A stretch of DNA of 47,865 bases from positions 1 to 47,865 of the forward strand of contig NW_003131561.1 in NCBI RefSeq assembly GCF_000003605.2, read 5' to 3'. The notes below the pieces were generated by a model. The model was not told where the DNA came from. It saw only the letters and a program-made list of their open reading frames with translations, and did no database searches. The position numbers and the translations under genes were made by a program. Source of the stretch: Saccoglossus kowalevskii. Taxonomy: Eukaryota; Hemichordata; Enteropneusta; Harrimaniidae. Below, piece after piece: positions 1 to 47,865 of the stretch; positions within the stretch are counted from its first letter, which is position 1; each line of letters starts with the position of its first letter.

Positions 1-6
1 CACATC

Positions 7-94
7 CCTTCGATATCTCAGTTGGTAGAGCGGAGGACTGTAGTGGTTATTTGCTGTTATCCTTAGGTCGCTGTTTCGAATCCGGCTCGAAGGA
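7..94 (+). pseudogene. tRNA-Tyr copy with G10T and G53T
   Basis: G10T breaks the G10-C25 pair and the A box, and G53T breaks the G53-C61 pair and the B box. Intron base 5 is T (TGGTTATTTG). Probably inactive. Confidence 0.7.
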
Positions 95-369
95 CGTGTC
101 CTGTTTTGCGTAAATTGTACTAGTACTTCATAGTCGATTACGTCATTAATGATTGTTTTCAAATTCGAGTGGCGCAAGTTTTGATTGCGTACTGCATCGT
201 CGATTACGTAATTCAAGAAAGTGTTTTCAATTGAAAATGGCGCATGTTCTGATTGCGTTACTCAATATATGATTGCACAAACGTCAAAACGGTGACATCA
301 TAATGAGACATTCAATGTCAAATGGCATAATTGGAGTCATCATGTTTGACATAATGACTACATGGAATC

Positions 370-455
370 CCTTCTTGATCTCAAATGCTAAACCGCACGA
401 CTGTACTGTCATTTGCTGTTATCCTAAGTCGCTGGTTCGAATCCAGCTCGAAGGA
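370..455 (+). pseudogene. Decayed tRNA-Tyr copy, the most diverged in the window
   Basis: The 5' half is degenerate: the A box reads TGATCTCAAATG, the D arm cannot pair, and the base after the anticodon is C. The 3' exon is nearly intact (ATCCTAAGTCGC, B box kept, G63A). The change is confined to the 5' half, so it is either concentrated decay or a foreign tract. Confidence 0.9.
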
Positions 456-729
456 CGTGTACTGTTTTGTGTAAATTGTACTAGTACTTCGTGGTCGATT
501 ACGTCATTAATGATTGTTTTCAAATTCGAGTTGCGCAAGTTTTGATTGCGTACTGCATCGTCGATTACGTAATTCATGAAAGTGTTTTCAATTTAAAATG
601 GCCATGTTCTGATTGCGATACTCAATATATGATTGCACAAACGTCAAAACGGTGACATCATAATGAGACATTTAATGTCAAAGGGCAGAATTGGACTCAT
701 CATGTTTGACATAATGACTACATGTCATC

Positions 730-817
730 CCTTCGATAGCTCAGTTGGTAGAGCGGAGTACTGTAGTGGTCATTTGCTGTTATCCTTAGGTCGCTGGTTC
801 GAATCCGGCTCGAAGGA
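730..817 (+). tRNA. tRNA-Tyr(GTA) variant G30T
   Basis: G30T opposes C40, giving one mismatch in the anticodon stem next to the splice region. Otherwise consensus. Confidence 0.7.
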
Positions 818-1091
818 CGTGTCCTGTTTTGCGTAAATTGTACTAGTACTACATGGTCGATTACGTCATTATGATTGTTTTCAAATTCGAGTTGCGCAAC
901 GTTTGATTGCCCACTGCATCGTCGATTACGTAACTCATGAAAGTGTTTTCAATTTAAAATGGCGCATGTTCTGATTGCGTTACGCAATATATGATTCCAC
1001 AAACGTCAAAACGGTGACATCAAAATGAGACATTCAATGTCAAAGGGTATAATTGGGGTCATCGTGTTTGATATAATGACTACATGTCATC

Positions 1092-1179
1092 CCATCGATA
1101 GCTCAGTTGGTAGAGCGGAGGACTGTAGTTGTCATTTGCTGTTATCTTTGGGTCGCTGGTTCAAATCCAGCTCGAAGGA
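1092..1179 (+). tRNA. tRNA-Tyr(GTA) variant, six changes
   Basis: T3A (acceptor mismatch with A70), intron base 2 T, C41T (wobble with G29), A44G, G57A (allowed in the B box) and G63A (turns T51-G63 into T51-A63). Confidence 0.65.
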
Positions 1180-1454
1180 CGTGTCCTGTTTTGCGTAAAT
1201 TGTACTAATACTTCACGGTCGATTACGTCATTAATGATTGTTTTCAAATTCGAGTGGCGCAAGTTTTGATTGCATACTGCATCGTCGATTATGTAATTCA
1301 TGAAAGTGTTTTCAATTTAAAATGGCGCATGTTCTGATTGCGTTACTCAATATATGAATGCACAAACGTCAATACGGTGACATCATAATGAGACATTCAA
1401 TGTCAAAGGGCAGAATTGGACTCATCATGTTTGACATAATAACTACATGTCATC

Positions 1455-1542
1455 CATTCGATAGCTCAGTTGGTAGAGCGGAGGACTGTAGTGGTCATTT
1501 GCTGTTATCTTTAGGTCGCTGGTTCTAATCCGGCTCGAAGGA
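1455..1542 (+). tRNA. tRNA-Tyr variant C2A, C41T, G57T
   Basis: C2A mismatches G71, and G57T leaves the B-box consensus (R57). Trailer reads CGAGTCCT. Likely weak or inactive. Confidence 0.6.
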
Positions 1543-1817
1543 CGAGTCCTGTTTTGCGTAAATTGTACTAGTACTTCATGGTCGATTACGTCATTAATGA
1601 TTGTTTTCAAATTCGAGTTGCGCAAGTTTTGAATGCGTACTGCATCGTCGATTACGTAATTCATGAAAGTGTTTTCAATTTAAAATGGCGCATGTTCTGA
1701 TTGCGTTACTCAATATATGATTGCACAAACGTCAAAACGATGACATCAAAATGAGACATTCAATGTCAAAGGGTATAATTGGGGTCATCGTGTTTGATAT
1801 AATAACTATATGTCATC

Positions 1818-1905
1818 CCTTCGATAGCTCAGTTGGTAGAGCGGAGGACTGTAGTGGTTATTTGCTGTTATCCTTAGGTCGCTGGTTCTAATTCGGCTCG
1901 AAGGA
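1818..1905 (+). pseudogene. tRNA-Tyr copy with G57T and C61T
   Basis: Two B-box changes; C61T opposes G53 as a wobble. The intron has the TGGTTATTTG form. Confidence 0.6.
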
Positions 1906-2180
1906 CGTGTCCTGTTTTGCGTAAATTGTACTAGTACTTCATAGTCGATTACGTCATTAATGATTGTTTTCAAATTCGAGTGGCGCAAGTTTTGATTGCG
2001 TACTGCATCGTCGATTACGTAATTCATGAAAGTGTTTTCAATTGACAATGGCGCATGTTCTGATTGCGTTACTCAATATATGATTGCACAAACGTCAAAA
2101 CGGTGACATCATAATGAGACATTCAATGTCAAAGGGCAGAATTGGACTCATCATGTTTGACTTAATGTCTACATGTCATC

Positions 2181-2268
2181 CCTTCGATAGCACAGTTGGT
2201 AGAGCGGAGGACTGTAGTGGTCATTTGCTGTTATCCTTAGGTCGCTGGTTCGAATCCGGCTCGAAGGA
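2181..2268 (+). tRNA. tRNA-Tyr variant T12A
   Basis: T12A opposes A23 in the D stem. Shared with the copy at 5449, exactly 3,268 bp downstream. Confidence 0.7.
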
Positions 2269-2543
2269 CGACTCCTGTTTTGCGTAAATTGTACTAGTAC
2301 TTCATAGTCGATTACGTCATTAATGATTGTTTTCAAATTCGAGTGGCGCAAGTTTTGATTGCATACTGCATCGTCGATTATGTAATTCATGAAAGTGTTT
2401 TCAATTTAAAATGGCGCATGTACTGATTGCGTTACTCAATATATGATTGCACAAACGTCAAAACGGTGACATCATAATGAGACATTCAATGTCAAAGGGC
2501 AGAATTGGACTCATCATGTTTGACATAATGACTACATGTCATC

Positions 2544-2631
2544 CATTCGATAGCTCAGTTGGTAGAACGGAGGTCTGTAGTGGTCATTTGCTGTTATCCT
2601 TAGGTCGCTGGTTCGAATCCGGCTCGAAGAA
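2544..2631 (+). pseudogene. tRNA-Tyr copy with C2A, G24A, A31T, G72A
   Basis: Four mismatches spread over acceptor, D and anticodon stems. All four recur at 5812. Downstream spacer starts with the rare ACATGCAGGTCGG form. Confidence 0.65.
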
Positions 2632-2907
2632 CGTGTCCTGTTTTGCGTAAATTGTACTAATACATGCAGGTCGGTTACGTCATTAATGAATTGTTTTCAA
2701 ATTCAAGTGGCGCAAGTTTTGATTGCGTACTGCATCGTCGATTATGTAATTCATGAAAGTGTTTTCAATTTAAAATGGCGCATGTTCTGATTGCGTTACT
2801 CAATATATGATTGCACAAACGTCAAAACGGTGACATCATAATGAGACATTCAATGTCAAAGGGCAGAATTGGGGTCATCGTGTTTGATATAATGACTACA
2901 TGTCATC

Positions 2908-2995
2908 CCTTCGATAGCTCAGTTGGTAGAGCGGAGGACTGTAGTGGTCATTTGCTGTTATCCTTAGGTCGCTGGTTCGAATACGGCTCGAAGGA
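2908..2995 (+). tRNA. tRNA-Tyr variant C61A
   Basis: C61A breaks the pair with G53 and the last base pair of the T stem. The same change is found at 3996, 6536, 25517, 26968 and 30963. Confidence 0.65.
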
Positions 2996-3269
2996 CGTGT
3001 CCTGTTTTGCGTAAATTGTACTAGTACTTCATGGTCGATTACGTCATTAATGATTGTTTTCAAATTCGAGTTGCGCAAGTTTTGATTGCTTACTGCATCG
3101 TCGATTACGTAATTCATGAAAGTGTTTTCAATATAAAATGGCCATGTTCTGATTGCGTTACTCAATATATGATTGCACAAACGTCAAAACGGTGACATCA
3201 TAATGAGACATTCAATGTCAAAGAGCAGAATTGGACTCATCATGTTTGACATAATGACTACATGTCATC

Positions 3270-3357
3270 CATTCGATAGCTCAGTTGGTAGAACGGAGGT
3301 CTGTAGTGGTCATTTGCTGTTATCCTTAGGTCGCTGGTTCGAATCCGGCTCGAAGGA
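3270..3357 (+). pseudogene. tRNA-Tyr copy with C2A, G24A, A31T
   Basis: Related to 2544, but the 3' acceptor strand is consensus and one C is missing just after A73. Confidence 0.6.
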
Positions 3358-3632
3358 GTGTCCTGTTTTGCGTAAATTGTACTAGTACTTCATGGTCGAT
3401 TACGTCATTAATGAATTGTTTTCAAATTCGAGTTGCGCAAGTTTTGATTGCTTACTGCATCGTCGATTACGTAATTCATGAAAGTGTTTTCAATATAAAA
3501 TGGCGCATGTTCTGATTGCGTTACTCAATATATGATTGCACAAACGTCAAAACGGTGACATCATAATGAGACATTCAATGTCAAAGAGCAGAATTGGACT
3601 CATCATGTTTGACATAATGACTACATGTCATC

Positions 3633-3720
3633 CCTTCGATAGCTCAGTTGGTAGAGCGGAGGACTGTAGTGGTCATTTGCTGTTATCCTTAGGTCGCTGG
3701 TTCGAATCCGGCTCGAAGGA
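3633..3720 (+). tRNA. tRNA-Tyr(GTA), consensus copy
   Basis: Mature sequence and intron identical to consensus. Trailer GTGTCCAG, T4 kept. Confidence 0.93.
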
Positions 3721-3995
3721 CGTGTCCAGTTTTGCGTAAATTGTACTAGTACTTCATGGTCGTTTACGTCATTAATGATTGTTTTCAAATTCGAGTTGCG
3801 CAAGTTTTGATTGCTTACTGCATCGTCGATTACGTAATTCATGAAAGTGTTTTCAATTGACAATGGCGCATGTTCTGATTGCGTTACTCAATATATGATT
3901 GCACAAACGTCAAAACGGTGACATCATAATGAGACATTCAATGTCAAAGGGCAGAATTTGACTCATCATGTTTGATATAATGACTACATGTCATC

Positions 3996-4083
3996 CCTTT
4001 GATAGCTCAGTTGGTAGAGCGGAGGACTGTAGTGGTCATTTGCTGTTATCCTTAGGTCGCTGGTTCGAATACGGCTCGAAGGA
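3996..4083 (+). tRNA. tRNA-Tyr variant C5T, C61A
   Basis: C5T makes a wobble with G68; C61A breaks the T stem. Confidence 0.62.
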
Positions 4084-4358
4084 CGTGTCCTGTTTTGCGT
4101 AAATTGTACTAGTACTTCATGGTCGATTACGTCATTAATGATTGTTTTCAAATTCGAGTTGCGCAAGTTTTGATTGCTTACTGCATCGTCGATTACGTAA
4201 TTCATGAAAGTGTTTTCAATATAAAATGGCGCATGTTCTGATTGCGTTACTCAATATATGATTGCACAAACGTCAAAACGGTGACATCATAATGAGACAT
4301 TCAATGTCAAAGAGCAGAATTGGACTCATCATGTTTGACATAATGACTACAGGTCATC

Positions 4359-4446
4359 CCTTCGATAGCGCAGTTGGTAGAGCGGAGGACTGTAGTGGTC
4401 ATTTGCTGTTATCCTTAGGTCGCTGGTTCGAATCCGGCTCGAAGGA
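4359..4446 (+). tRNA. tRNA-Tyr variant T12G
   Basis: T12G opposes A23 in the D stem. Shared with 26243 and 27330. Confidence 0.7.
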
Positions 4447-4721
4447 CGTGTCCTGTTTTGCGTAAATTGTACTAGTACTTCATAGTCGATTACGTCATTA
4501 ATGATTGTTTTCAAATTCGAGTGGCGCAAGTTTTGATTGCATACTGCATCGTCGATTATGTAATTCATGAAAGTGTTTTCAATTTAAAATGGCGCATGTT
4601 TTGATTGCGTTACTCAATATATGATTGCACAAACGTCAAAACGGTGACATCATAATGAGACATTCAATGTCAAAGGGTATAATTGGGGTCATCGTGTTTG
4701 ATATAATGACTACATGTCATC

Positions 4722-4809
4722 CCTTCGATAGCTCAGTTGGTAGAGCGGAGGACTGTAGTGGTCATTTGCTGTTATCATTAGGTCGCTGGTTCGAATCCGG
4801 CTCGAAGAA
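4722..4809 (+). tRNA. tRNA-Tyr variant C41A, G72A
   Basis: Mismatches at 29-41 (anticodon stem) and 1-72 (acceptor end). Confidence 0.62.
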
Positions 4810-5085
4810 CGTGTCCTGTTTTGCGTAAATTGTACTAATACTGCGTGGTCGGTTACGACATTAATGAATTGTTTTCAAATTCAAGTGGCGCAAGTTTTGA
4901 TTGCGTACTGCATCGTCGATTACGTAATTCATGAAAGTGTTTTCAATTTAAAATGGCGCATGTTCTGATTGCGTTACACAATATATGATTGCACAAACGT
5001 CAAAACGGTGACATCAAAATGAGACATTCAATGTCAAAGGGTATAATTGGGGTCATCGTGTTTGATATAATAACTACATGTCATC

Positions 5086-5173
5086 CCTTCGATAGCTCAG
5101 TTGGTAGAGCGGAGGACTGTAGTGGTTATTTGCTGTTATCCTTAGGTCGCTGGTTCGAATCCGGCTCGAAGGA
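5086..5173 (+). tRNA. tRNA-Tyr(GTA), consensus exons, intron C5T
   Basis: Exons identical to consensus; the intron reads TGGTTATTTGCTGTT and keeps the G needed opposite C32. Confidence 0.92.
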
Positions 5174-5448
5174 CGTGTCCTGTTTTGCGTAAATTGTACT
5201 AGTACTTCATAGTCGATTACGTCATTAATGATTGTTTTCAAATTCGAGTGGCGCAAGTTTTGATTGCGTACTGCATCGTCGATTACGTAATTCATGAAAG
5301 TGTTTTCAATTGACAATGGCGCATGTTCTGATTGCGTTACTCAATATATGATTGCACAAACGTCAAAACGGTGACATCATAATGAGACATTCAATGTCAA
5401 AGGGCAGAATCGGACTCATCATGTTTGACATAATGACTACATGTCATC

Positions 5449-5536
5449 CCTTCGATAGCACAGTTGGTAGAGCGGAGGACTGTAGTGGTCATTTGCTGTT
5501 ATCCTTAGGTCGCTGGTTCGAATCCGGCTCGAAGGA
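5449..5536 (+). tRNA. tRNA-Tyr variant T12A
   Basis: Sister of 2181. Trailer CGAGTCCT, against CGACTCCT at 2181. Confidence 0.7.
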
Positions 5537-5811
5537 CGAGTCCTGTTTTGCGTAAATTGTACTAGTACTTCATAGTCGATTACGTCATTAATGATTGTTT
5601 TCAAATTCGAGTGGCGCAAGTTTTGATTGCATACTGCGTCGTCGATTATGTAATTCATGAAAGTGTTTTCAATTTAAAATGGCGCATGTTCTGATTGCGT
5701 TACTCAATATATGATTGCACAAACGTCAAAACGGTGACATCATAATGAGACATTCAATGTCAAAGGGCAGAATTGGACTCATCATGTTTGACATAATGAC
5801 TACATGTCATC

Positions 5812-5899
5812 CATTCGATAGCTCAGTTGGTAGAACGGAGGTCTGTAGTGGTCATTTGCTGTTATCCTTAGGTCGCTGGTTCGAATCCGGCTCGAAGAA
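5812..5899 (+). pseudogene. tRNA-Tyr copy with C2A, G24A, A31T, G72A
   Basis: Same four changes and same ACATGCAGG spacer start as 2544. Confidence 0.65.
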
Positions 5900-6175
5900 C
5901 GTGTCCTGTTTTGCGTAAATTGTACTAATACATGCAGGTCGGTTACGTCATTAATGAATTGTTTTCAAATTCAAGTGGCGCAAGTTTTGATTGCGTACTG
6001 CATCGTCGATTATGTAATTCATGAAAGTGTTTTCAATTTAAAATGGCGCATGTTCTGATTGCGTTACTCAATATATGATTGCACAAACGTCAAAACGGTG
6101 ACATCATAATGAGACATTCAATGTCAAAGGGCAGAATTGGGGTCATCGTGTTTGATATAATGACTACATGTCATC

Positions 6176-6260
6176 CCTTCGATAGCTCAGTTGGTAGAGC
6201 GGAGGACTGTAGTGGTTATTTGCTGTTATCCTTAGGTCGCTGCGAATCCGGCTCGAAGGA
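6176..6260 (+). pseudogene. tRNA-Tyr copy with 3-nt B-box deletion
   Basis: CGCTGGTTCGAATCC is shortened to CGCTGCGAATCC, destroying the T loop and B box. Identical lesions occur at 9189 and 20441. Confidence 0.88.
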
Positions 6261-6535
6261 CGTGTCCTGTTTTGCGTAAATTGTACTAGTACTTCATAGT
6301 CGATTACGTCATTAATGATTGTTTTCAAATTCGAGTGGCGCAAGTTTTGATTGCGTACTGCATCGTCGATTACGTAATTCATGAAAGTGTTTTCAATTGA
6401 CAATGGCGCATGTTCTGATTGCGTTACTCAATATATGATTGCACAAACGTCAAATCGGTGACATCATAATGAGACATTCAATGTCAAAGGGCAGAATTTG
6501 ACTCATCATGTTTGATATAATGACTACATGTCATC

Positions 6536-6623
6536 CCTTTGATAGCTCAGTTGGTAGAGCGGAGGACTGTAGTGGTCATTTGCTGTTATCCTTAGGTCGC
6601 TGGTTCGAATACGCCTCGAAGGA
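6536..6623 (+). pseudogene. tRNA-Tyr copy with C5T, C61A, G64C
   Basis: Two of five T-stem pairs are broken. Upstream spacer shares GAATTTGACTC with 3996 and 26968. Confidence 0.6.
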
Positions 6624-6897
6624 CGTGTCCTGTTTTGCGTAAATTGTACTAGTACTTCATGGTCGATTACGTCATTAATGATTGTTTTCAAATTCGAGTT
6701 GCGCAAGTTTTGATTGCTTACTGCATCGTCGATTACGTAATTCATGAAAGTGTTTTCAATATAAAATGGCCATGTTCTTATTGCGTTACTCAATATATGA
6801 TTGCACAAACGTCAAAACGGTGACATCATAATGAGACATTCAATGTCAAAGAGCAGAATTGGACTCATCATGTTTGACATAATGACTACATGTCATC

Positions 6898-6985
6898 CAT
6901 TCGATAGCTCAGTTGGTAGAGCGGAGGTCTGTAGTGGTCATTTGCTGTTATCCTTAGGTCGCTGGTTCGAATCCGGCTCGAAGAA
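6898..6985 (+). tRNA. tRNA-Tyr variant C2A, A31T, G72A; terminator reduced
   Basis: Three stem mismatches. The trailer has GTTTAG instead of GTTTTG, so the proximal Pol III stop is only T3. Confidence 0.58.
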
Positions 6986-7261
6986 CGTGTCCTGTTTAGC
7001 GTAAATTGTACTAATACATGCAGGTCGGTTACGTCATTAATGAATTGTTTTCAAATTCAAGTGGCGCAAGTTTTGATTGCGTACTGCATCGTCGATTATG
7101 TAATTCATGAAAGTGTTTTCAATTTAAAATGGCGCATGTTCTGATTGCGTTACTCAATATATGATTGCACAAACGTCAAAACGGTGACATCATAATGGGA
7201 AATTCAATGTCAAAGGGTATAATTGGGGTCATCGTGTTTGATATAATGACTACATGTCATC

Positions 7262-7349
7262 CCTTCGATAGCTCTGTTGGTAGAGCGGAGGACTGTAGTG
7301 GTCATTTGCTGTTATCCTTAGGTCGCTGGTTCAAATCCGGCTCGAAGGA
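7262..7349 (+). tRNA. tRNA-Tyr variant A14T, G57A
   Basis: A14T removes the conserved base that pairs with T8 in the tRNA core and is an A-box position. Confidence 0.62.
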
Positions 7350-7623
7350 CGTGTTCTGTTTTGCGTAAATTGTACTAGTAGTTCATGGTCGATTACGTCA
7401 TTAATGATTGTTTTCAAATTCGAGTGGCGCAAGTTTTGAATGCGTACTGCATCGTCGATTACGTAATTCATGAAAGTGTTTCCAATTTAAAATGGCCATG
7501 TTCTGATTGCGTTACTCAATATATGATTGCACAAACGTCAAAACGGTGACATCAAAATGAGACATTCAATGTCAAAGGGTATAATTGGGGTCATCATGTT
7601 TGATATAATGACTACATGTCATC

Positions 7624-7712
7624 CCTTCGATAGCTCAGTTGGTAGAGCGGAGGACTGTAGTGGTCATTTTGCTGTTATCCTTAGGTCGCTGGTTCGAATC
7701 CGGCTCGAAGGA
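7624..7712 (+). tRNA. tRNA-Tyr(GTA), consensus exons, 16-nt intron
   Basis: One extra T in the intron's T run; exons identical to consensus. Confidence 0.92.
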
Positions 7713-7986
7713 CGTGTTCTGTTTTGCGTAAATTGTACTAGTACTTCATGGTCGATTACGTCATTAATGATTGTTTTCAAATTCGAGTTGCGCAAGTTTT
7801 GATTGCTTACTGCATCGTCGATTACGTAATTCATGAAAGTGTTTTCAATTTAAAATGGCCATGTTCTGATTGCGTTACTCAATATATGCTTGCACAAACG
7901 TCAAAACGGTGACATCAAAATGAGACAATCAATGTCAAAGGGTATAATTGGGGTCATCGTGTTTGATATAATGACTACATGTCATC

Positions 7987-8074
7987 CCTTTGATAGCTCA
8001 GTTGGTAGAGCGGAGGACTGTAGTGGTCATTTGCTGTTATCCTTATGTCGCTGGTTCGAATCCAGCTCGAAGTA
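7987..8074 (+). tRNA. tRNA-Tyr variant C5T, G45T, G63A, G72T
   Basis: Same four changes at 32014, 34613 and 37840. G72T mismatches C1, while G63A improves the T stem. The next spacer has AAAGAGTTTTC for AAAGTGTTTTC. Confidence 0.65.
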
Positions 8075-8307
8075 CGTGTCCTGTTTTGCGTAAATTGTAC
8101 TAGTACTTCATGGTCGATTACGTCATTAATGATTGTTTTCAAATTCGAGTTGCGCAAGTTTTGATTGCTTAATGCATCGTCGATTACGTAATTCATGAAA
8201 GAGTTTTCAATTTAAAATGGCCATGTTCTGATTGCGTAACTCATTATATGATTGCACAAACGTCAAAACGGTGACATCAAAATGAGACAAAATGACTACA
8301 TGTCATC

Positions 8308-8395
8308 CCTTCGATAGCTCAGTTGGTAGAGCGGAGGACTGTAGTGGTCATTTGCTGTTATCCTTAGGTCGCTGGTTCGAATCCGGCTCGAAGGA
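8308..8395 (+). tRNA. tRNA-Tyr(GTA), consensus copy with shortened 5' flank
   Basis: Consensus throughout. A 42-bp deletion upstream removes the region from the GACATTCAATGTC palindrome through the TATA-like stretch, joining GAGACA to AAATGACTACATG. Confidence 0.93.
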
Positions 8396-8600
8396 CGTGT
8401 CCTGTTTTGCGTAAATTGTACTAGTACTTCATAGTCGATTACGTCATTAATGATTGTTTTCAAATTCGAGTGGCGCAAGTTTTGATTGCATACTGCATCG
8501 TCGATTATGTAATTCATGAAAGTGTTTTCAATTTAAAATGGCGCATGTTCTGATTGCGTTACTCAATATATGATTGCACAAACGTCAAAACGGTGACATC

Positions 8601-8755
8601 ATTAATGATTGTTTTCAAATTCGAGTGGCGCAAGTTTTGATTGCGTACTGCATCGTCGATTACGTAATTCATGAAAGTGTTTTCAATTGAAAATGGCGCA
8701 TGTTCTGATTGCGTTACTCAATATATGATTGCACAAACGTCAAAACGGTGACATC
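8601..8755 (+). repeat. 155-bp spacer piece without a tRNA (copy 1)
   Basis: The spacer runs normally to GGTGACATC and then jumps back to ATTAATGATTG at the start of module 1, so modules 1 and 2 occur twice with no tRNA between them. The junction lies in similar words (CATCATAATGA and CGTCATTAATGA), suggesting recombination at microhomology. It creates the 518-bp spacing before 8826. Confidence 0.92.
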
Positions 8756-8825
8756 ATAATGAGACATTCAATGTCAAAGGGTATAATTGGGGTCATCGTG
8801 TTTGATATAATGACTACATGTCATC

Positions 8826-8913
8826 CCTTCGATAGCTCAGTTGGTAGAGCGGAGGACTGTAGTGGTCATTTGCTGTTATCCTTATGTCGCTGGTTCGAAT
8901 CCAGCTCGAAGAA
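8826..8913 (+). tRNA. tRNA-Tyr variant G45T, G63A, G72A
   Basis: Related to the 7987 family, but C5 is intact and base 72 is A. Confidence 0.65.
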
Positions 8914-9188
8914 CGTGTCCTGTTTTGCGTAAATTGTACTAGTACTTCATGGTCGATTACGTCATTAATGATTGTTTTCAAATTCGAGTTGCGCAAGTTT
9001 TTATTGCTTACTGCATCGTCGATTACGTAATTCATGAAAGTGTTTTCAATTGAAAATGGCGCATGTTCTGATTGCGTTACTCAATATATGATTGCACAAA
9101 CGTCAAAACGGTGACATCATAATGAGACATTCAATGTCAAAGGGCAGAATTGGGGTCATCGTGTTTGATATAATGACTACATGTCATC

Positions 9189-38926: not shown

Positions 38927-39014
38927 CCATCGATAGCTCAGTTGGTAGAGCGGAGGACTGTAGTGGTCATTTGCTGTTATCCTTAGGTCGCTGGTTCGAA
39001 TCCAGCTCGAAGGA
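38927..39014 (+). tRNA. tRNA-Tyr variant T3A, G63A
   Basis: Twin of 38565, evidence of a single-unit duplication. Confidence 0.72.
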
Positions 39015-39288: not shown

Positions 39289-39376
39289 CCTTCGATAGCT
39301 CAGTTGGTAGAGCGGAGGACTGTAGTGGTCATTTGCTGTTATCCTTAGGTCGCTGGTTCGAATCCGGCTCGAAGGA
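39289..39376 (+). tRNA. tRNA-Tyr(GTA), consensus copy
   Basis: Consensus; its upstream matches that of 37477. Confidence 0.94.
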
Positions 39377-39650
39377 CGTGACCTGTTTTGCGTAAATTGT
39401 ACTAGTACTGCATGGTCGGTTACGTCATTAATGATTGTTTTCAAATTCGAGTTGCGCAACATTTGATTGCCCACTGCATCGTCGATTACGTAATTCATGA
39501 AAGTGTTTTCAATTTAAAATGGCCATGTTCTGATTGCGTTACTCAATATATGATTGCACAAACGTCAAAACGGTGACATCAAAATGAGACATTCAATGTC
39601 AAAGGGTATAATTGGGGTCATCGTGTTTGATATAATGACTACATGTCATC

Positions 39651-39738
39651 CCTTCGATAGCTCAGTTGGTAGAGCGGAGGACTGTAGTGGTCATTTGCTG
39701 TTATCCTTAGGTCGCTGGTTCGAATCCGGCTCGAAGGA
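39651..39738 (+). tRNA. tRNA-Tyr(GTA), consensus copy
   Basis: Consensus; last regular unit before the diverged right-hand subfamily. Confidence 0.94.
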
Positions 39739-40014
39739 CGTGTCCTGTTTTGCGTAAATTGTACTAGTACTGCATGGTCGGTTACGTCATTAAGGAATTG
39801 TTTTCAAATTCAAGTGGCGCAAGTTTTTATTGCGTACTGCATCGTCGATTACGTAATTCATGAAAGTGTTTTCAATTGAAAATGGCGCAAGTTCTCATTG
39901 CGTTACTCAATATATGATTGCACAAACGTCAAAACGGTGACATCAATATGACACATTCAATGTCAAAGGGCAGAAATGGACTCATCATGTTTGACTTAAT
40001 GACTACATGTCATC

Positions 40015-40102
40015 CCTTCGATAGCTCAGTTGGTAGAGCGGAGGACTGTAGTGGTCATTTGTTGTTATCCTTAGGTCGCTGGTTCGAATCCGGCTGGAAA
40101 CA
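40015..40102 (+). pseudogene. tRNA-Tyr copy with altered 3' acceptor (C67G, G71A, G72C)
   Basis: The 3' acceptor strand reads TGGAAAC with no matching change in CCTTCGA, so three of seven pairs fail. Intron C11T. First of five such copies. Confidence 0.75.
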
Positions 40103-40377
40103 CGTGTCCTGTTTTGTGCAAATTCTACTAATACTTCATGGTCGATTACGTCATTAATGATTGTTTTCAAATTCAAATGGCGCAAGTTTTGATTGCGTAC
40201 TGCATCGTCGATTACGTAATTCATGGGAGTGTTTTCAATTTAAAATGGCGCATTTTCTGATTGCGTTACTCAATATATAATTGCACAAACGTCAAAACGG
40301 TGACATCAATATGACACATTCAATGTCAAAGGTCAGAATTGGGCTCATCATGTTTGATATAATGACCTTATGTCATC

Positions 40378-40465
40378 CCTTCGATAGCTCAGTTGGTAGA
40401 GCGGAGGACTGTAGTGGTCATTTGTTGTTATCCTTAGGTCGCTGGTTCGAATCCGGCTGGAAACA
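40378..40465 (+). pseudogene. tRNA-Tyr copy with altered 3' acceptor
   Basis: Same TGGAAAC acceptor and intron as 40015; leader ATGACCTTATGTCAT. Confidence 0.75.
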
Positions 40466-40740
40466 CGTGTCCTGTTTTGTGCAAATTCTACTAATACTTC
40501 ATGGTCGATTACGTCATTAATGATTGTTTTCAAATTCGAGTTGCGCAAGTTTTGATTGCATACTGCATCGTCGATTACGTAATTCATGACAGTGTTTTCA
40601 ATTTAAAATGGCGCATGTTCTGATTGCGTTACTCAATATATGATTGCACAAACGTCAAAACGGTGACATAAAAATGAGACAGTCAATGTCAAAGGGCAGA
40701 ATTAGGGTCATGGTGTTTGATATAATGACTTAATGTCATA

Positions 40741-40828
40741 TCTTCGATAGCTCAGTTGGTAGAGCGGAGGACTGTAGTGGTCATTTGCTGTTATCCTTAG
40801 GTCGCTGGTTCGAATCCGGCTCGAAGGA
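40741..40828 (+). tRNA. tRNA-Tyr variant C1T
   Basis: U1-G72 wobble; base -1 is A. A regular unit embedded among acceptor mutants. Confidence 0.75.
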
Positions 40829-41103
40829 CGTGTCCTGTTTTGCGTAAATTTTACTAGTACTTCATGGTCGATTACGTCATTAATGATTGTTTTCAAATTC
40901 AAATGGCGCAAGTTTTGATTGCGTACTGCATCGTCGATTACGTAATTCATGGGAGTGTTTTCAATTTAAAATGGCGCATTTTCTGATTGCGTTACTCAAT
41001 ATATAATTGCACAAACGTCAAAACGGTGACATCAATATGACACATTCAATGTCAAAGGTCAGAATTGGGCTCATCATGTTTGATATAATGACCTTATGTC
41101 ATC

Positions 41104-41191
41104 CCTTCGATAGCTCAGTTGGTTGAGCGGAGGACTGTAGTGGTCATTTGTTGTTATCCTTAGGTCGCTGGTTCGAATCCGGCTGGAAACA
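41104..41191 (+). pseudogene. tRNA-Tyr copy with altered 3' acceptor and A21T
   Basis: TGGAAAC acceptor plus loss of the conserved A21. Confidence 0.75.
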
Positions 41192-41390
41192 CGTGTCCTG
41201 TTTTGTGCAAATTTTACTAATACTTCATGGTCGATTACGTCATTAATGATTGTTTTCAAATTCGAGTTGCGCAAGTTTTGATTGCATACTGCATCGTCGA
41301 TTACGTAATTCATGGCAGTGTTTTCAATTTAAAATGGCGCATGTTCTGATTGCGTTACTCAATATATGATTGCACAAACGTCAAAACGGT

Positions 41391-41399
41391 GACAACGGT
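41391..41399 (+). repeat. 9-bp duplication ACGGTGACA
   Basis: ACGGTGACA occurs twice in direct succession, lengthening this unit to 372 bp. The same duplication occurs before 46414. Exact placement within the repeat is arbitrary. Confidence 0.8.
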
Positions 41400-41475
41400 G
41401 ACATCAAAATGAGACATTCAATGTCAAAGGGCATAATTGGGGTCATCGTGTTTGATATAATGACTACATGTCATC

Positions 41476-41563
41476 CCTTCGATAGCTCAGTTGGTAGAGC
41501 GGAGGACTGTAGTGGTCATTTGCTGTTATCCTTAGGTCGCTGGTTCGAATCCGGCTCGAAGGA
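41476..41563 (+). tRNA. tRNA-Tyr(GTA), consensus copy
   Basis: Consensus gene followed by a spacer cut to 109 nt: module 1 joins directly to TCAAAGGTCAG at an ATTAATG word, losing module 2. Confidence 0.93.
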
Positions 41564-41672
41564 CGTGTCCTGTTTTGCGTAAATTTTACTAGTACTTCAT
41601 GGTCGATTACGTCATTAATGTCAAAGGTCAGAATTTGGCTCATCATGTTTGATATAATGACCTTATGTCATC

Positions 41673-41760
41673 CCTTCGATAGCTCAGTTGGTAGAGCGGA
41701 GGACTGTAGTGGTCATTTGTTGTTATCCTTAGGTCGCTGATTCGAATCCGGCTGGAAACA
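41673..41760 (+). pseudogene. tRNA-Tyr copy with altered 3' acceptor and G53A
   Basis: TGGAAAC acceptor and a broken B box (GATTCGAATCC). Confidence 0.78.
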
Positions 41761-41904
41761 CGTGTCCTGTTTTGTGCAAATTCTACTAATACTGCATGGT
41801 CGTTTATGTCATTAATGAATTGTTTTCAAAATCAAGTGGCGCCAGTTTTGATTGCGTTTTTCATCGTCGCTTACGTAATTCAAAGAATTGTTTTCAATTT
41901 AAAA

Positions 41905-41952
41905 TCATTTGCTGTTATCCTTAGGTCGCTGGTTCGAATCCGGCTCGAAGAA
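41905..41952 (+). pseudogene. 3'-half tRNA-Tyr (intron remnant plus 3' exon), copy 1
   Basis: The last 12 intron bases and all 36 bases of the 3' exon (G72A) are fused to spacer ending ATTTAAAA; there is no 5' exon, anticodon or A box. The B box is intact and TTTT follows. Confidence 0.9.
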
Positions 41953-42012
41953 CGTCTCCTGTTTTGTGCAATTGTTTTCAATTTAAAATGGCGCATGTTC
42001 TGACTGCGTTAC

Positions 42013-42037
42013 TCGAAGGACGTGAAGGCTGGAAACA
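42013..42037 (+). other. Two tRNA 3'-end fragments in tandem (scrambled segment, copy 1)
   Basis: TCGAAGGA (42013-42020) is followed within a few bases by GGCTGGAAACA (42027-42037), the ends of a normal and an acceptor-mutant tRNA. Part of module 2 lies between these and the half tRNA. Copies 2-4 follow the other half tRNAs. Confidence 0.75.
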
Positions 42038-42312
42038 CGTGTCCTGTTTTGTGCAAATTCTACTAATACTTCATGGTCGATTACGTCATTAATGATTGTT
42101 TTCAAATTCGAGTTGCGCAAGTTTTGATTGCATACTGCATCGTCGATTACGTAATTCATGACAGTGTTTTCAATTTAAAATGGCGCATGTTCTGATTGCG
42201 TTACTCAATATATGATTGCACAAACGTCAAAACGGTGACATCAAAATGAGACATTCAATGTCAAAGGGCATAATTGGGGTCATCGTGTTTGATATAATGA
42301 CTACATGTCATC

Positions 42313-42400
42313 CCTTCGATAGCTCAGTTGGTAGAGCGGAGGACTGTAGTGGTCATTTGCTGTTATCCTTAGGTCGCTGGTTCGAATCCGGCTCGAAGGA
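42313..42400 (+). tRNA. tRNA-Tyr(GTA), consensus copy
   Basis: First gene of the 1,364-bp repeat; trailer CCTCTTTTG. Confidence 0.94.
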
Positions 42401-42675
42401 CGTGTCCTCTTTTGCGTAAATTGTACTAGTACTTCGTGGTCGATTACGTCATTAATGATTGTTTTCAAATTCGAGTTGCGCAAGTTTTGATTGCGTACTG
42501 CATCGTCGATTACGTAATTCATGAAAGTGTTTTCAATTGAAAATGGCGCATGTTCTGATTGCGTTACTCAATATATGATTGCACAAACGTCAAAACGGTG
42601 ACATCAAAATGAGATATTTAATGTCAAAGGGCAGAATTGGACTCATCATGTTTGACATAATGACTACATGTCATC

Positions 42676-42760
42676 CCTTCGATAGCTCAGTTGGTAGAGC
42701 GGAGGACTGTAGTGGTCTGCTCTTATCCTTAGGTCGCTGGTTCGAATCCGGCTCGAAGGA
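42676..42760 (+). tRNA. tRNA-Tyr(GTA), consensus exons, 12-nt intron
   Basis: Intron TGGTCTGCTCTT. The base three from its end is C, so the pair with C32 used in splicing is lost here, unlike at 44040. Confidence 0.85.
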
Positions 42761-43036
42761 CGTGTCCTATTTTGCTCAAATTCTACTAATACTGCATGGT
42801 CGTTTTCGTCATTAATGAATTGTTTTCAAATTCACGTGACGCCAGTTTTGATTGCGTTCTGCATCGTCGATTACGTAATTCATGGGAGTGTTTTCAATTT
42901 AAAATGGCGCATTTTCTGATTGCGTTACTCAATATATAATTGCACAAACGTCAAAACGGTGACATCAATACGAGACATTTAATGTCAAAAGGCAGAATTA
43001 GACTCATCATGTTTGACATAATTATTACATGTCATC

Positions 43037-43124
43037 CCTTCGATAGCTCAGTTGGTAGAGCGAACGACTGTAGTGGTCATTTGCTGTTATCCTTAAGTTG
43101 CTGGTTCGAATCCGGCTCGAAAGA
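43037..43124 (+). pseudogene. tRNA-Tyr copy with G27A, G29C, G45A, C48T, G71A
   Basis: C29-C41 and C2-A71 mismatches; A27-T43 becomes a proper pair. Same set at 44401 and 45765. Confidence 0.6.
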
Positions 43125-43268
43125 CGTCTCATGTTTTGTGCAAATTCTACTAATACTGCATGGTCGTTTATGTCATTAATGAATTGTTTTCAAAATCAAG
43201 TGGCGCCAGTTTTGATTGCGTTTTTCATCGTCGCTTACGTAATTCAAAGAATTGTTTTCAATTTAAAA

Positions 43269-43316
43269 TCATTTGCTGTTATCCTTAGGTCGCTGGTTCG
43301 AATCCGGCTCGAAGAA
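43269..43316 (+). pseudogene. 3'-half tRNA-Tyr, copy 2
   Basis: As 41905-41952, 1,364 bp downstream. Confidence 0.9.
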
Positions 43317-43676
43317 CGTCTCCTGTTTTGTGCAATTGTTTTCAATTTAAAATGGCGCATGTTCTGACTGCGTTACTCGAAGGACGTGAAGGCTGGAAAC
43401 ACGTGTCCTGTTTTGTGCAAATTCTACTAATACTTCATGGTCGATTACGTCATTAATGATTGTTTTCAAATTCGAGTTGCGCAAGTTTTGATTGCATACT
43501 GCATCGTCGATTACGTAATTCATGACAGTGTTTTCAATTTAAAATGGCGCATGTTCTGATTGCGTTACTCAATATATGATTGCACAAACGTCAAAACGGT
43601 GACATCAAAATGAGACATTCAATGTCAAAGGGCATAATTGGGGTCATCGTGTTTGATATAATGACTACACGTCATC

Positions 43677-43764
43677 CCTTCGATAGCTCAGTTGGTAGAG
43701 CGGAGGACTGTAGTGGTCATTTGCTGTTATCCTTAGGTCGCTGGTTCGAATCCGGCTCGAAGGA
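43677..43764 (+). tRNA. tRNA-Tyr(GTA), consensus copy
   Basis: Leader altered to CTACACGTCAT; trailer CCTCTTTTG. Confidence 0.93.
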
Positions 43765-44039
43765 CGTGTCCTCTTTTGCGTAAATTGTACAAGTACTTCG
43801 TGGTCGATTACGTCATTAATGATTGTTTTCAAATTCGAGTTGCGCAAGTTTTGATTGCGTACTGCATCGTCGATTACGTAATTCATGAAAGTGTTTTCAA
43901 TTGAAAATGGCGCATGTTCTGATTGCGTTACTCAATATATGATTGCACAAACGTCAAAACGGTGACATCAAAATGAGATATTTAATGTCAAAGGGCAGAA
44001 TTGGACTCATCATGTTTGACATAATGACTACATGTCATC

Positions 44040-44124
44040 CCTTCGATAGCTCAGTTGGTAGAGCGGAGGACTGTAGTGGTCTGCTGTTATCCTTAGGTCG
44101 CTGGTTCGAATCCGGCTCGAAGGA
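44040..44124 (+). tRNA. tRNA-Tyr(GTA), consensus exons, 12-nt intron
   Basis: Intron TGGTCTGCTGTT keeps the G opposite C32. Confidence 0.9.
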
Positions 44125-44400
44125 CGTGTCCTATTTTGCTCAAATTCTACTAATACTGCATGGTCGTTTTCGTCATTAATGAATTGTTTTCAAATTCACG
44201 TGACGCCAGTTTTGATTGCGTTCTGCATCGTCGATTACGTAATTCATGGGAGTGTTTTCAATTTAAAATGGCGCATTTTCTGATTGCGTTACTCAATATA
44301 TAATTGCACAAACGTCAAAACGGTGACATCAATATGAGACATTTAATGTCAAAAGGCAGAATTAGACTCATCATGTTTGACATAATTATTACATGTCATC

Positions 44401-44488
44401 CCTTCGATAGCTCAGTTGGTAGAGCGAACGACTGTAGTGGTCATTTGCTGTTATCCTTAAGTTGCTGGTTCGAATCCGGCTCGAAAGA
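44401..44488 (+). pseudogene. tRNA-Tyr copy with G27A, G29C, G45A, C48T, G71A
   Basis: Second copy of the 43037 form. Confidence 0.6.
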
Positions 44489-44632
44489 CGTCTCATGTTT
44501 TGTGCAAATTCTACTAATACTGCATGGTCGTTTATGTCATTAATGAATTGTTTTCAAAATCAAGTGGCGCCAGTTTTGATTGCGTTTTTCAACGTCGCTT
44601 ACGTAATTCAAAGAATTGTTTTCAATTTAAAA

Positions 44633-44680
44633 TCATTTGCTGTTATCCTTAGGTCGCTGGTTCGAATCCGGCTCGAAGAA
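44633..44680 (+). pseudogene. 3'-half tRNA-Tyr, copy 3
   Basis: Same fusion point and trailer as copies 1 and 2. Confidence 0.9.
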
Positions 44681-45040
44681 CGTCTCCTGTTTTGTGCAAT
44701 TGTTTTCAATTTAAAATGGCGCATGTTCTGACTGCGTTACTCGAAGGACGTGAAGGCTGGAAACACGTGTCCTGTTTTGTGCAAATTCTACTAATACTTC
44801 ATGGTCGATTACGTCATTAATGATTGTTTTCAAATTCGAGTTGCGCAAGTTTTGATTGCATACTGCATCGTCGATTACGTAATTCATGACAGTGTTTTCA
44901 ATTTAAAATGGCGCATGTTCTGATTGCGTTACTCAATATATGATTGCACAAACGTCAAAACGGTGACATCAAAATGAGACATTCAATGTCAAAGGGCATA
45001 ATTGGGGTCATCGTGTTTGACATAATGACTACATGTCATC

Positions 45041-45128
45041 CCTTCGATAGCTCAGTTGGTAGAGCGGAGGACTGTAATGGTCATTTGCTGTTATCCTTAG
45101 GTCGCTGGTTCGAATCCGGCTCGAAGGA
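45041..45128 (+). tRNA. tRNA-Tyr variant G37A
   Basis: Only change is G37A beside the anticodon and splice site. Confidence 0.72.
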
Positions 45129-45403
45129 CGTGTCCTCTTTTGCGTAAATTGTACTAGTACTTCGTGGTCGATTACGTCATTAATGATTGTTTTCAAATTC
45201 GAGTTGCGCAAGTTTTGATTGCGTACTGCATCGTCGATTACGTAATTCATGAAAGTGTTTTCAATTGAAAATGGCGCATGTTCTGATTGCGTTACTCAAT
45301 ATATGATTGCACAAACGTCAAAACGGTGACATCAAAATGAGATATTTAATGTCAAAGGGCAGAATTGGACTCATCATGTTTGACATAATGACTACATGTC
45401 ATC

Positions 45404-45488
45404 CCTTCGATAGCTCAGTTGGTAGAGCGGAGGACTGTAGTGGTCTGCTGTTATCCTTATGTCGCTGGTTCGAATCCGGCTCGAAGGA
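45404..45488 (+). tRNA. tRNA-Tyr variant G45T, 12-nt intron
   Basis: Variable-loop change; intron as at 44040. Confidence 0.82.
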
Positions 45489-45764
45489 CGTGTCCTATTT
45501 TGCTCAAATTCTACTAATACTGCATAGTCGTTTTCGTCATTAATGAATTGTTTTCAAATTCACGTGACGCCAGTTTTGATTGCGTTCTGCATCGTCGATT
45601 ACGTAATTCATGGGAGTGTTTTCAATTTAAAATGGCGCATTTTCTGATTGCGTTACTCAATATATAATTGCACAAACGTCAAAACGGTGACATCAATATG
45701 AGACATTTAATGTCAAAAGGCAGAATTAGACTCATCATGTTTGACATAATTATTACATGTCATC

Positions 45765-45852
45765 CCTTCGATAGCTCAGTTGGTAGAGCGAACGACTGTA
45801 GTGGTCATTTGCTGTTATCCTTAAGTTGCTGGTTCGAATCCGGCTCGAAAGA
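45765..45852 (+). pseudogene. tRNA-Tyr copy with G27A, G29C, G45A, C48T, G71A
   Basis: Third copy of the 43037 form. Confidence 0.6.
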
Positions 45853-45996
45853 CGTCTCATGTTTTGTGCAAATTCTACTAATACTGCATGGTCGTTTATG
45901 TCATTAATGAATTGTTTTCAAAATCAAGTGGCGCCAGTTTTGATTGCGTTTTTCATCGTCGCTTACGTAATTCAAAGAATTGTTTTCAATTTAAAA

Positions 45997-46044
45997 TCAT
46001 TTGCTGTTATCCTTAGGTCGCTGGTTCGAATCCGGCTCGAAGAA
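45997..46044 (+). pseudogene. 3'-half tRNA-Tyr, copy 4
   Basis: Last half copy, followed by the scrambled segment and a unit with the 9-bp duplication. Confidence 0.9.
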
Positions 46045-46413
46045 CGTCTCCTGTTTTGTGCAATTGTTTTCAATTTAAAATGGCGCATGTTCTGACTGCG
46101 TTACTCGAAGGACGTGAAGGCTGGAAACACGTGTCCTGTTTTGTGCAAATTCTACTAATACTTCATGGTCGATTACGTCATTAATGATTGTTTTCAAATT
46201 CGAGTTGCGCAAGTTTTGATTGCATACTGCATCGTCGATTACGTAATTCATGGCAGTGTTTTCAATTTAAAATGGCGCATGTTCTGATTGCGTTACTCAA
46301 TATATGATTGCACAAACGTCAAAACGGTGACAACGGTGACATCAAAATGAGACATTCAATGTCAAAGGGCATAATTGGGGTCATCGTGTTTGATATAATG
46401 ACTACATGTCATC

Positions 46414-46501
46414 CCTTCGATAGCTCAGTTGGTAGAGCGGAGGACTGTAGTGGTCATTTGCTGTTATCCTTAGGTCGCTGGTTCGAATCCGGCTCGAAGG
46501 A
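46414..46501 (+). tRNA. tRNA-Tyr(GTA), consensus copy
   Basis: Consensus; unit matches 41476 in its upstream ACGGTGACA duplication. Confidence 0.94.
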
Positions 46502-46776
46502 CGTGTCCTGTTTTGCGTAAATTTTACTAGTACTTCATGGTCGATTACGTCATTAATGATTATTTTCAAATTCAAATGGCGCAAGTTTTGATTGCGTACT
46601 GCATCGTCGATTACGTAATTCATGGGAGTGTTTTCAATTTAAAATGGCGCATTTTCTGATTGCGTTACTCAATATATAATTGCACAAACGTCAAAACGGT
46701 GACATCAATATGAGACATTTAATGTCAAAGGTCAGAATTGGGCTCATCATGTTTGATATAATGACCTTATGTCATC

Positions 46777-46864
46777 CCTTCGATAGCTCAGTTGGTAGAG
46801 CGGAGGACTGTAGTGGTCATTTGTTGTTATCCTTAGGTCGCTGGTTCGAATCCGGCTGGAAACA
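46777..46864 (+). pseudogene. tRNA-Tyr copy with altered 3' acceptor
   Basis: TGGAAAC acceptor; matches 40378. Confidence 0.75.
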
Positions 46865-47139
46865 CGTGTCCTGTTTTGTGCAAATTCTACTAATACTTCA
46901 TGGTCGATTACGTCATTAATGATTGTTTTCAAATTCGAGTTGCGCAAGTTTTGATTGCATACTGCATCGTCGATTACGTAATTCATGACAGTGTTTTCAA
47001 TTTAAAATGGCGCATGTTCTGATTGCGTTACTCAATATATGATTGCACAAACGTCAAAACGGTGACATCAAAATGAGACATTCAATGTCAAAGGGCATAA
47101 TTGGGGTCATCGTGTTTGATATAATGACTACATGTCATC

Positions 47140-47227
47140 CCTTCGATAGCTCATTTGGTAGAGCGGAGGACTGTAGTGGTCATTTGCTGTTATCCTTAGG
47201 TCGCTGGTTCGAATCCGGCTCGAAGGA
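47140..47227 (+). tRNA. tRNA-Tyr variant G15T
   Basis: G15T removes the G15-C48 core pair and an A-box base. Confidence 0.65.
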
Positions 47228-47502
47228 CGTGTCCTGTTTTGCGTAAATTGTGCTAGTACTTCGTGGTCGATTACGTCATTAATGATTGTTTTCAAATTCG
47301 AGTTGCGCAAGTTTTGATTGCGTACTGCATCGTCGATTACGTAATTCATGAAAGTGTTTTCAATTGAAAATGGCGCATGTTCTGATTGCGTTACTCAATA
47401 TATGATTGCACAAACGTCAAAACGGTGACATCAAAATGAGATATTTAATGTCAAAGGGCAGAATTGGACTCATCATGTTTGACATAATGACTACATGTCA
47501 TC

Positions 47503-47587
47503 CCTTCGATAGCTCAGTTGGTAGAGCGGAGGACTGTAGTGGTCTTCTGTTATCCTTAGGTCGCTGGTTCAAATCCGGCTCGAAGGA
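47503..47587 (+). tRNA. tRNA-Tyr variant G57A, 12-nt intron
   Basis: Intron TGGTCTTCTGTT; A57 is tolerated in the B box. The next tRNA begins at the last base of the window. Confidence 0.8.
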
Positions 47588-47865
47588 CGTGTCCTGTTTT
47601 GCTCAAATTCTACTAATACTGCATGGTCGTTTTCGTCATTAATGAATTGTTTTCAAATTCACGTGACGCCAGTTTTGATTGCGTTCTGCATCGTCGATTA
47701 CGTAATTCATGGGAGTGTTTTCAATTTAAAATGGCGCATTTTCTGATTGCGTTACTCAATATATAATTGCACAAACGTCAAAACGGTGACATCAATATGA
47801 GACATTTAATGTCAAAAGGCAGAATTAGACTCATCATGTTTGACATAATTATTAACATGTCATCC

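Follow-up and report, generated by a model that had tools for sequence, protein, structure and literature searches.

The window analysed here is a whole contig (C2326, 47,865 bp) within the 572-Mb genome of the hemichordate Saccoglossus kowalevskii, and it is filled end to end by a tandem array of tRNA-Tyr(GTA) genes (1..47865, plus strand). A blastn search of the window with the 88-nt consensus gave 132 matches, all on the plus strand, 128 of them near full length and four consisting of the 3' half only. Units range in length from 197 to 649 bp, the commonest length being 363 bp (60/128). All of this bears out the preliminary description, which had reported 128 copies on a single strand, one about every 363 bp, running off both ends of the sequence. 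The array has the organization expected of tandem tRNA genes: its units follow one another head-to-tail without change of strand, and intact copies are mixed with broken ones.

Departures from the regular unit are local. There are four units of 518 bp, as at 8308..8825 (plus strand), that carry an extra 155-bp spacer repeat, and a 68-bp sub-repeat occurs twice within units, in diverged form. Close to the right end lie three consecutive blocks of 1,364 bp containing decayed units (42037..46129, plus strand). The four half-copies found by blastn are at 41905..41950, 43269..43314, 44633..44678 and 45997..46042, also on the plus strand. When mean difference between units is considered against distance, no regular higher-order repeat extends over the array, only the local one of 1,364 bp at the right end.

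A perfect copy, identical to the 88-nt consensus, may be seen at 3633..3720 (plus strand). It is preceded by the TATA-like element TTGACATAAT (3609..3618), interrupted after tRNA position 37 by an intron of 15 nt (3670..3684), and followed by a spacer (3721..3995) in which a run of four Ts (3730..3733) lies 10 nt past the gene. These features are general. The anticodon is GTA in 128/128 copies, and with the cloverleaf and the 15-nt intron after position 37 they have what is expected of a eukaryotic nuclear tRNA-Tyr. TATAAT or CATAAT occurs no more than 40 nt upstream in 113/128 copies, and T4, likely a Pol III terminator, no more than 30 nt downstream in 124/128. The Rfam gathering score for tRNA is passed by 127/128 copies, the sole failure being a heavily decayed copy at 370..455 (plus strand), which has 15 mature differences and nonetheless retains GTA. 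ARAGORN, run without introns, found 98 genes and called most of them Leu and some His, Thr, Asp or unknown, miscalls that I attribute to the intron not having been allowed for.

The copies are far from uniform. There are 62 distinct mature sequences among the 128. The consensus mature sequence without insertion is found in 39 and a fortieth has one inserted base, close to the 40 or so first reported; 35 copies are identical with the intron included. All stem pairs are intact, with no indel, in 62/128. In the remaining 66/128 a stem pair is broken or an indel is present, a figure that counts against the explanation I favor below.

Units of normal length differ from each other by 5.5% on average (115 units), and near-identical units and duplicated blocks recur at many distances along the array, sharing variants. 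Differences from the consensus amount to 1.67% in the mature gene, 1.64% in the intron, and 1.55% in the spacer (114 units), figures obtained after dropping the columns with widely shared variants, 1 of 73 in the mature gene and 20 of 275 in the spacer. Retaining those columns gives 1.90%, 1.64%, and 3.69%, and on this count the spacer is the more different. Since gene, intron, and spacer vary alike, at about 1.6%, single copies behave like the units of a satellite, and constraint on any one of them is not detectable. It might even be thought that the gene is more mutable than the spacer, with 0.96 changes per site against 0.66 (115 units, the counts of constraint omitting the 13/128 units of unusual length), but the value is inflated by the decayed copy at 370. 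Without that copy (114 units) the gene has 0.84 changes per site and the spacer 0.66. An excess as great is matched by 66/362 circular shifts of the unit (24/362 for single-occurrence changes, 48/362 for rare changes), and so the claim is limited to this: the gene is not less variable than the spacer.

Neither can it be claimed that selection is absent. Perfect copies number 40, against 26.9 expected under a Poisson distribution (n = 127), and stem pairs are kept in 12/41 cases, against about 20% expected. This excess, the kept pairs, and the invariant anticodon could reflect weak selection or recent duplication, so that a lack of selection is unproven. The outer parts of the array may be more divergent than its core (Mann-Whitney P = 0.012), and identical copies make up 31/86 in the core and 9/42 outside it (Fisher P = 0.11), both comparisons using limits chosen after the data had been seen. 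In sum, the array behaves like a satellite in being long, composed of similar units that evolve in concert, and without detectable constraint on its single units, with an excess of perfect copies that leaves room for weak selection. The suggestion that a tRNA gene had here become satellite DNA therefore stands insofar as the gene is no more constrained than the spacer. That the satellite is dead is not established, because about a third of the copies are perfect genes with flanking signals like those of Pol III.

Could the array be an artefact of assembly? The contigs that contain it are small and, save for one observed edge, end inside it. The same array is found on two further contigs, however, and one of these, C4039, provides the edge: a junction to the 3' end of a LINE. 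The parts of C4039 and of the other contig, C2836, that were compared with the window match it at best by about 95-97%, so the contigs are not duplicates of one another in those parts. Such matches, the 5.5% difference between units, and the 62 mature sequences mean that the assembler did not create the array by copying a single unit, and I regard an artefact as highly improbable.

A tandem, tRNA-derived mobile element akin to a SINE has in its favor a tRNA body and Pol III signals in many copies, and yet it almost certainly is not what lies here. A 25-mer from the spacer has 144 matches on the plus strand of the genome, and all 144 fall within two array contigs, C2326 and C2836; no dispersed single copies of the spacer were found on that strand, whereas single copies dispersed with a non-tRNA part are the mark of a tRNA-derived SINE. 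Of the 81 matches on the reverse strand, at least 20 are in the compared parts of C4039. Units of constant length, head-to-tail, also argue against such an element. Searches of IMG/VR and GTDB contigs gave no match to the array patterns.

Arrays of this sort are not confined to tyrosine: other tRNAs of the genome, even the rare tRNA-Sec, are arranged likewise. The genome-wide picture, drawn from the matches listed and from small contig pieces, includes at least arrays of Arg-TCG, Cys-GCA, Ser-AGA, Leu-AAG, Pro-TGG, Gly-GCC, and Sec-TCA, and one in which Met alternates with an intron-bearing tRNA (Met+Leu). Trp-CCA (two adjoining genes) and Ile-AAT (three genes within 1.6 kb) are probably arrayed as well. 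The Pro-TGG array has 94 B-box matches on a single contig of 70.9 kb, longer than that of Tyr. In changes per site, gene against spacer, small samples of five of these arrays give 0.49 and 0.59 for Cys (28 units), 0.07 and 0.05 for Arg (7), 0.22 and 0.11 for Ser (4), 0.16 and 0.18 for Leu (5), and 0.01 and 0.03 for Met (4). By mean pairwise difference the gene is less variable than the spacer in 5/5 of these samples. The tRNA-Sec array consists of ten genes in tandem. A Sec word has eight exact matches in the genome, all inside that one array and none in a Sec gene standing alone, which suggests that the tRNA-Sec array, at least, is the working locus.

I propose, as the likely explanation, that several tRNA families in this hemichordate are kept, in the manner of 5S rDNA, as head-to-tail arrays, mostly with one tRNA per array, and that the window is part of one of them. 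Copies would be turned over, and variants spread, by unequal exchange and gene conversion. Individual copies would drift freely while the array overall retains a stock of perfect genes. Every gene would bring a promoter and a terminator of its own, and gene number would be buffered with no selection on any one copy. Pol III would transcribe some of the copies.

Other views must be set beside this one. The preliminary description considered a dedicated, high-output locus serving, for example, the synthesis of tyrosine-rich secreted proteins. The copy number is certainly high, and loss of the Arabidopsis SYY cluster alters a root-cap protein rich in Ser, Tyr, and Pro, according to the excerpts of that study (PMC12308677). 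Nonetheless, demand for tyrosine is very unlikely to be the cause, as many other tRNAs are arrayed in the same genome, the very finding that had been named in advance as the one to make tyrosine unremarkable. The Pro array contig is the longer, and Sec is among those arrayed. Selenocysteine requires little tRNA, and its tandem array therefore speaks against demand as a general cause.

Alternatively, the unit may have been amplified by recombination alone, the Tyr array lying silent while lone genes do the work. A lone tRNA-Tyr gene, with an intron unlike the array's, indeed exists on contig C1497, and in about half of the array copies a stem pair is broken or an indel is present. Gene, intron, and spacer are similarly variable, and in Arabidopsis most tissues do not express the SYY cluster, as stated in excerpts of the same study (PMC12308677). 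An inert satellite does not sit well, however, with 39 perfect copies, with TATA-like and T4 signals kept by most copies, or with the confinement of 8/8 exact Sec matches to an array, and I consider it rather unlikely.

There is also a lone tRNA-Arg gene, on contig C3484. The lone Tyr and Arg genes could do the work, an observation that counts against my proposal. Each differs from the consensus of its array, in the mature part, at both sides of one stem pair, with pairing kept: at 49-65 the Tyr array has G49-C65 and the lone gene A49-T65, and at 5-68 the Arg array has C5-G68 and the lone gene G5-T68. In Xenopus, tRNA-Tyr genes form an oocyte-type set in tandem and a separate somatic set. One may speculate that here too there are two sets for many isoacceptors, the arrays, Sec included, serving eggs and early embryos, the dispersed genes, drifted by pair-preserving changes, serving the soma. 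Such a maternal supply would be a special case of the proposed 5S-like arrays, compatible with them. Several isotypes are arrayed, and both lone genes compared show the pair-preserving change, but they are two genes only and none of the exact Sec matches belongs to a lone gene, so the idea is a doubtful one.

Tandem tRNA arrays are themselves of a known kind. The 3.18-kb tRNA repeat of Xenopus laevis, which includes oocyte-type tRNA-Tyr, resembles the window in that an animal has some tRNA genes in tandem and others dispersed, but its unit is longer and contains several tRNAs, and developmental regulation is known for it. Also close is the Arabidopsis SYY cluster, where, in the excerpts describing it (PMC12308677), 54 Tyr genes are clustered and 13 give tRNA-like RNAs. 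Like the window it has tandem, intron-bearing tRNA-Tyr genes of a major mature type along with variants and broken copies, and in both genomes Tyr genes whose introns differ lie dispersed, apart from the tandem set. In the cluster the major type is commoner in the core and the flanks are more variable, as may also hold for the window, given the post hoc limits used there. The cluster differs in being of a plant, in its Ser-Tyr-Tyr unit and fewer copies, and in having been tested by expression and deletion. Large tDNA clusters, of fifty and more members, occur in Nematostella, zebrafish, and stickleback, animals in whose genomes the majority of tDNAs are clustered, 89% of them in Nematostella (PMC2888827, excerpts). 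Those differ from the present case, a hemichordate with short units and mostly one tRNA per array, and the excerpts do not mention arrays of tyrosine or Sec tRNA. The arrays of Entamoeba histolytica (same excerpts, PMC2888827) resemble those here in that tandem organization is a habit of the genome, but the organism is a protist. At human 1q23.3 there is a tandem tRNA repeat, again in an animal, whose unit differs in being 7.3 kb long, with 9-43 units per allele (PMC4041453, excerpts). No paper on hemichordate tRNA arrays was found among the best full-text matches listed. Elsewhere in the assembly, a 4.3-kb mitochondrial piece (C4830) has cox1 inverted, AUA as Ile, AAA as Lys, tRNA-Lys UUU, and AGA as Ser or Gly; its gene order and code, compared by description, fit features published for S. 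kowalevskii (PMC3121625, excerpts). The inverted cox1 also pointed to a lancelet, a candidate rejected once ATA and AAA proved to fit Ile and Lys and the order described for Saccoglossus agreed.

A genome with many arrays like those of 5S genes, tRNA-Sec included, offers a natural case in which to test why some lineages have their tRNA genes in arrays, whether from demand, for maternal supply, or through recombination free of selection. For Tyr and Arg, the array genes differ from the lone genes at known mature positions, and tRNA sequencing could therefore separate their products. In such genomes, tRNA copy number is a poor proxy for codon demand.

The window is one entire contig (C2326; other C-numbers are contigs of the same assembly) of the 572 Mb and 4,830 contigs searched, and tRNA-Tyr(GTA) genes, arrayed head to tail, take up the whole of it. 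The preliminary description had counted 128 copies on one strand, about one per 363 bp, with some 40 carrying the consensus mature sequence. blastn of the 88-nt consensus against the window bears this out: there are 132 matches, all on the plus strand, 128 near-full and four with the 3' half only, the most frequent unit length is 363 bp (60/128), and the mature sequence is exactly consensus in 39/128 copies (35/128 if the intron is included). In a 363-bp unit, exons of 37 and 36 nt flank a 15-nt intron, and the other 275 bp are spacer, within which a 68-bp sub-repeat is present as two diverged copies. Of the 128 near-full copies, 127 pass the Rfam tRNA model, all retain the GTA anticodon, and 62 have every stem pair intact and no indel. 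In 124/128 copies a run of four T's occurs no more than 30 nt from the gene, and in 113/128 TATAAT or CATAAT is present within 40 nt upstream. The upstream element (e.g. 3609-3618) has two frequent forms, TTGATATAAT (62 copies) and TTGACATAAT (48 copies), associated with other linked variants and interspersed along the array.

Units of normal length (115) differ by 5.5% on average. Those that are nearly identical are a few units apart or are parts of larger duplicated blocks, for example 68-74 units distant, and a 1,364-bp block is repeated near the array's right end. Gain or loss of spacer sequence in some units has produced lengths of 321 and 518 bp. When columns with widely shared variants are excluded, the difference from consensus (114 units) is 1.67% in the mature gene, 1.64% in the intron, and 1.55% in the spacer; when they are included, the spacer is higher, 3.69% vs 1.90% in the mature gene. 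A standard pair is kept in 12 of 41 distinct stem-pair changes (neutral expectation about 20%), two-sided compensatory stem changes were looked for in the 128 window copies and none was found, and there are 40 perfect copies vs 26.9 expected by a Poisson model (n = 127). Judged by these stem-pair and perfect-copy counts, and because variation is alike in gene, intron, and spacer, there is no clear selection on single Tyr copies, though weak selection may be present. The idea that the gene is more variable than the spacer was rejected, as the effect came from one decayed copy (370-455).

A 25-mer from the start of the gene has 174 exact matches in the genome vs none in a reversed control. The plus strand has 108 (among those listed, 84 in the window, 22 in C2836, and one in C1497) and the other strand 66, at least 16 of them in C4039, of which 9,786 of 34,286 bases were read. 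All 11 reverse-strand matches to a longer pattern are in C4039. A spacer 25-mer has 144 plus-strand matches, 112 in the window and 32 in C2836 with none left over, and 81 on the other strand. The best identity of the other array contigs to the window is about 95-97% in the parts compared, and these parts are therefore not copies of it. An array edge is visible on C4039, where decayed units adjoin the 3' end of a LINE, about 0.6 kb long and with an A-rich tail (positions 1-610 of the piece read; Pfam zf-RVT, E = 1.8e-7).

A genome search with the Rfam tRNA model, in which 63 of 25,204 loose candidates were scored, found the majority of the 63 clustered as runs on few contigs. The small contig pieces read contain arrays of Arg-TCG (C237, C1937, C3006) and Cys-GCA (C926, C682, C4368), two adjacent Trp-CCA genes (C4826), and, on C4103 and C3484, one lone tRNA gene each. 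The Arg arrays on C237 and C1937 have a unit of about 568 bp, with a second, decayed Arg-like copy in the spacer. The B-box word GGTTCGAATCC matches the genome 2,112 times vs 25 in the reversed control. The matches were listed by contig, so the first 100 do not sample the genome at random; three small contigs account for 87 of them, and 12 others share the remaining 13. One of the three holds Ser-AGA genes and another Leu-AAG genes. In the third, C341 (piece 1-3400), tRNA-Met takes turns with a longer, 127-nt tRNA that contains an intron and was read as Leu-CAA; the unit is about 603 bp, and this is the sole two-gene array observed. GGTTCAAATCC has 733 matches vs 61 in the control, and 94 of the first 100 listed are in C117 (70.9 kb), where 2.6 kb read holds six Pro-TGG genes. 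GGTTCGATTCC, with 190 matches vs 46, led to runs of Gly-GCC (C925, C2245, C2549), three Ile-AAT genes in 1.6 kb (C550), and C1591; many matches outside these runs stand singly. C2647 has at least six GGTTCGATTCC matches, on a single strand and unevenly spaced across about 48 kb.

For the S. kowalevskii mitochondrion, passages of one paper give AUA = Ile, AAA = Lys, AGA = Ser, a tRNA-Lys with UUU, an inverted COX1, and a relocated ND1 or ND2 (PMC3121625). In the one 4.3-kb piece read of the mitochondrial contig C4830, cox1 is encoded on one strand and nad1 and cox2 on the other, the tRNA-Lys anticodon is TTT, AAA codons occur at Lys sites, and nad1 has two AGA/AGG codons for which Ser or Gly is possible. 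ATA codons in cox1 fall at sites that are presumably Ile in other animals. On these features the host is probably the acorn worm S. kowalevskii or a species close to it.

The window array belongs to a known class, that of tandem tRNA arrays, of which Xenopus has an example. The Arabidopsis SYY cluster is another: the portions of the source consulted describe 54 clustered Tyr genes, 13 of which yield tRNA-like RNAs, and separate dispersed Tyr genes (PMC12308677). A second source names Nematostella, stickleback, and zebrafish as having tRNA clusters and Entamoeba as having tRNA arrays (PMC2888827). Among the best-ranked results of full-text literature searches, none reported tRNA arrays in hemichordates.

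Ten selenocysteine tRNA genes stand in tandem on C1591 (11,244 bp; three in piece 1-2100, seven in piece 1-9144), about 1,300 or 518 bp apart. All ten exceed the gathering score of the Rfam tRNA-Sec model, five are identical to the query copy, and one common TATA-like stretch lies upstream of each. Animals typically have a single tRNA-Sec gene. It is because of this array that amplification by demand is unlikely. That the arrays are purely silent also seems unlikely, since the eight exact genome matches to a 27-base Sec word are all in C1591 and none was seen outside it; a divergent lone Sec gene may exist elsewhere in the genome. I propose that the Tyr array is most likely a gene reservoir resembling 5S rDNA, in which many units, each with its own predicted promoter and terminator, would be held similar by exchange, and in which perfect copies would be numerous enough for tRNA supply.

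Then there are the lone genes, two of which have an array of their own kind for comparison. The tRNA-Tyr gene on C1497 has an intron unlike the array's, and the contig outside it has no match to the array unit; its mature part departs from the array consensus at just two positions, 49 and 65, where A-T replaces a G-C pair. The tRNA-Arg(TCG) gene on C3484 (positions 670-742 of the piece) differs only at 5 and 68, C-G becoming G-T with pairing kept. One stem pair is thus changed on both sides and still paired in both, which suggests that these lone genes are constrained and form a set separate from the array genes. A less likely reading is that array genes would serve the egg and early embryo and lone genes the soma, and the mature differences between array and lone genes (49-65 in Tyr, 5-68 in Arg) make this maternal supply testable.
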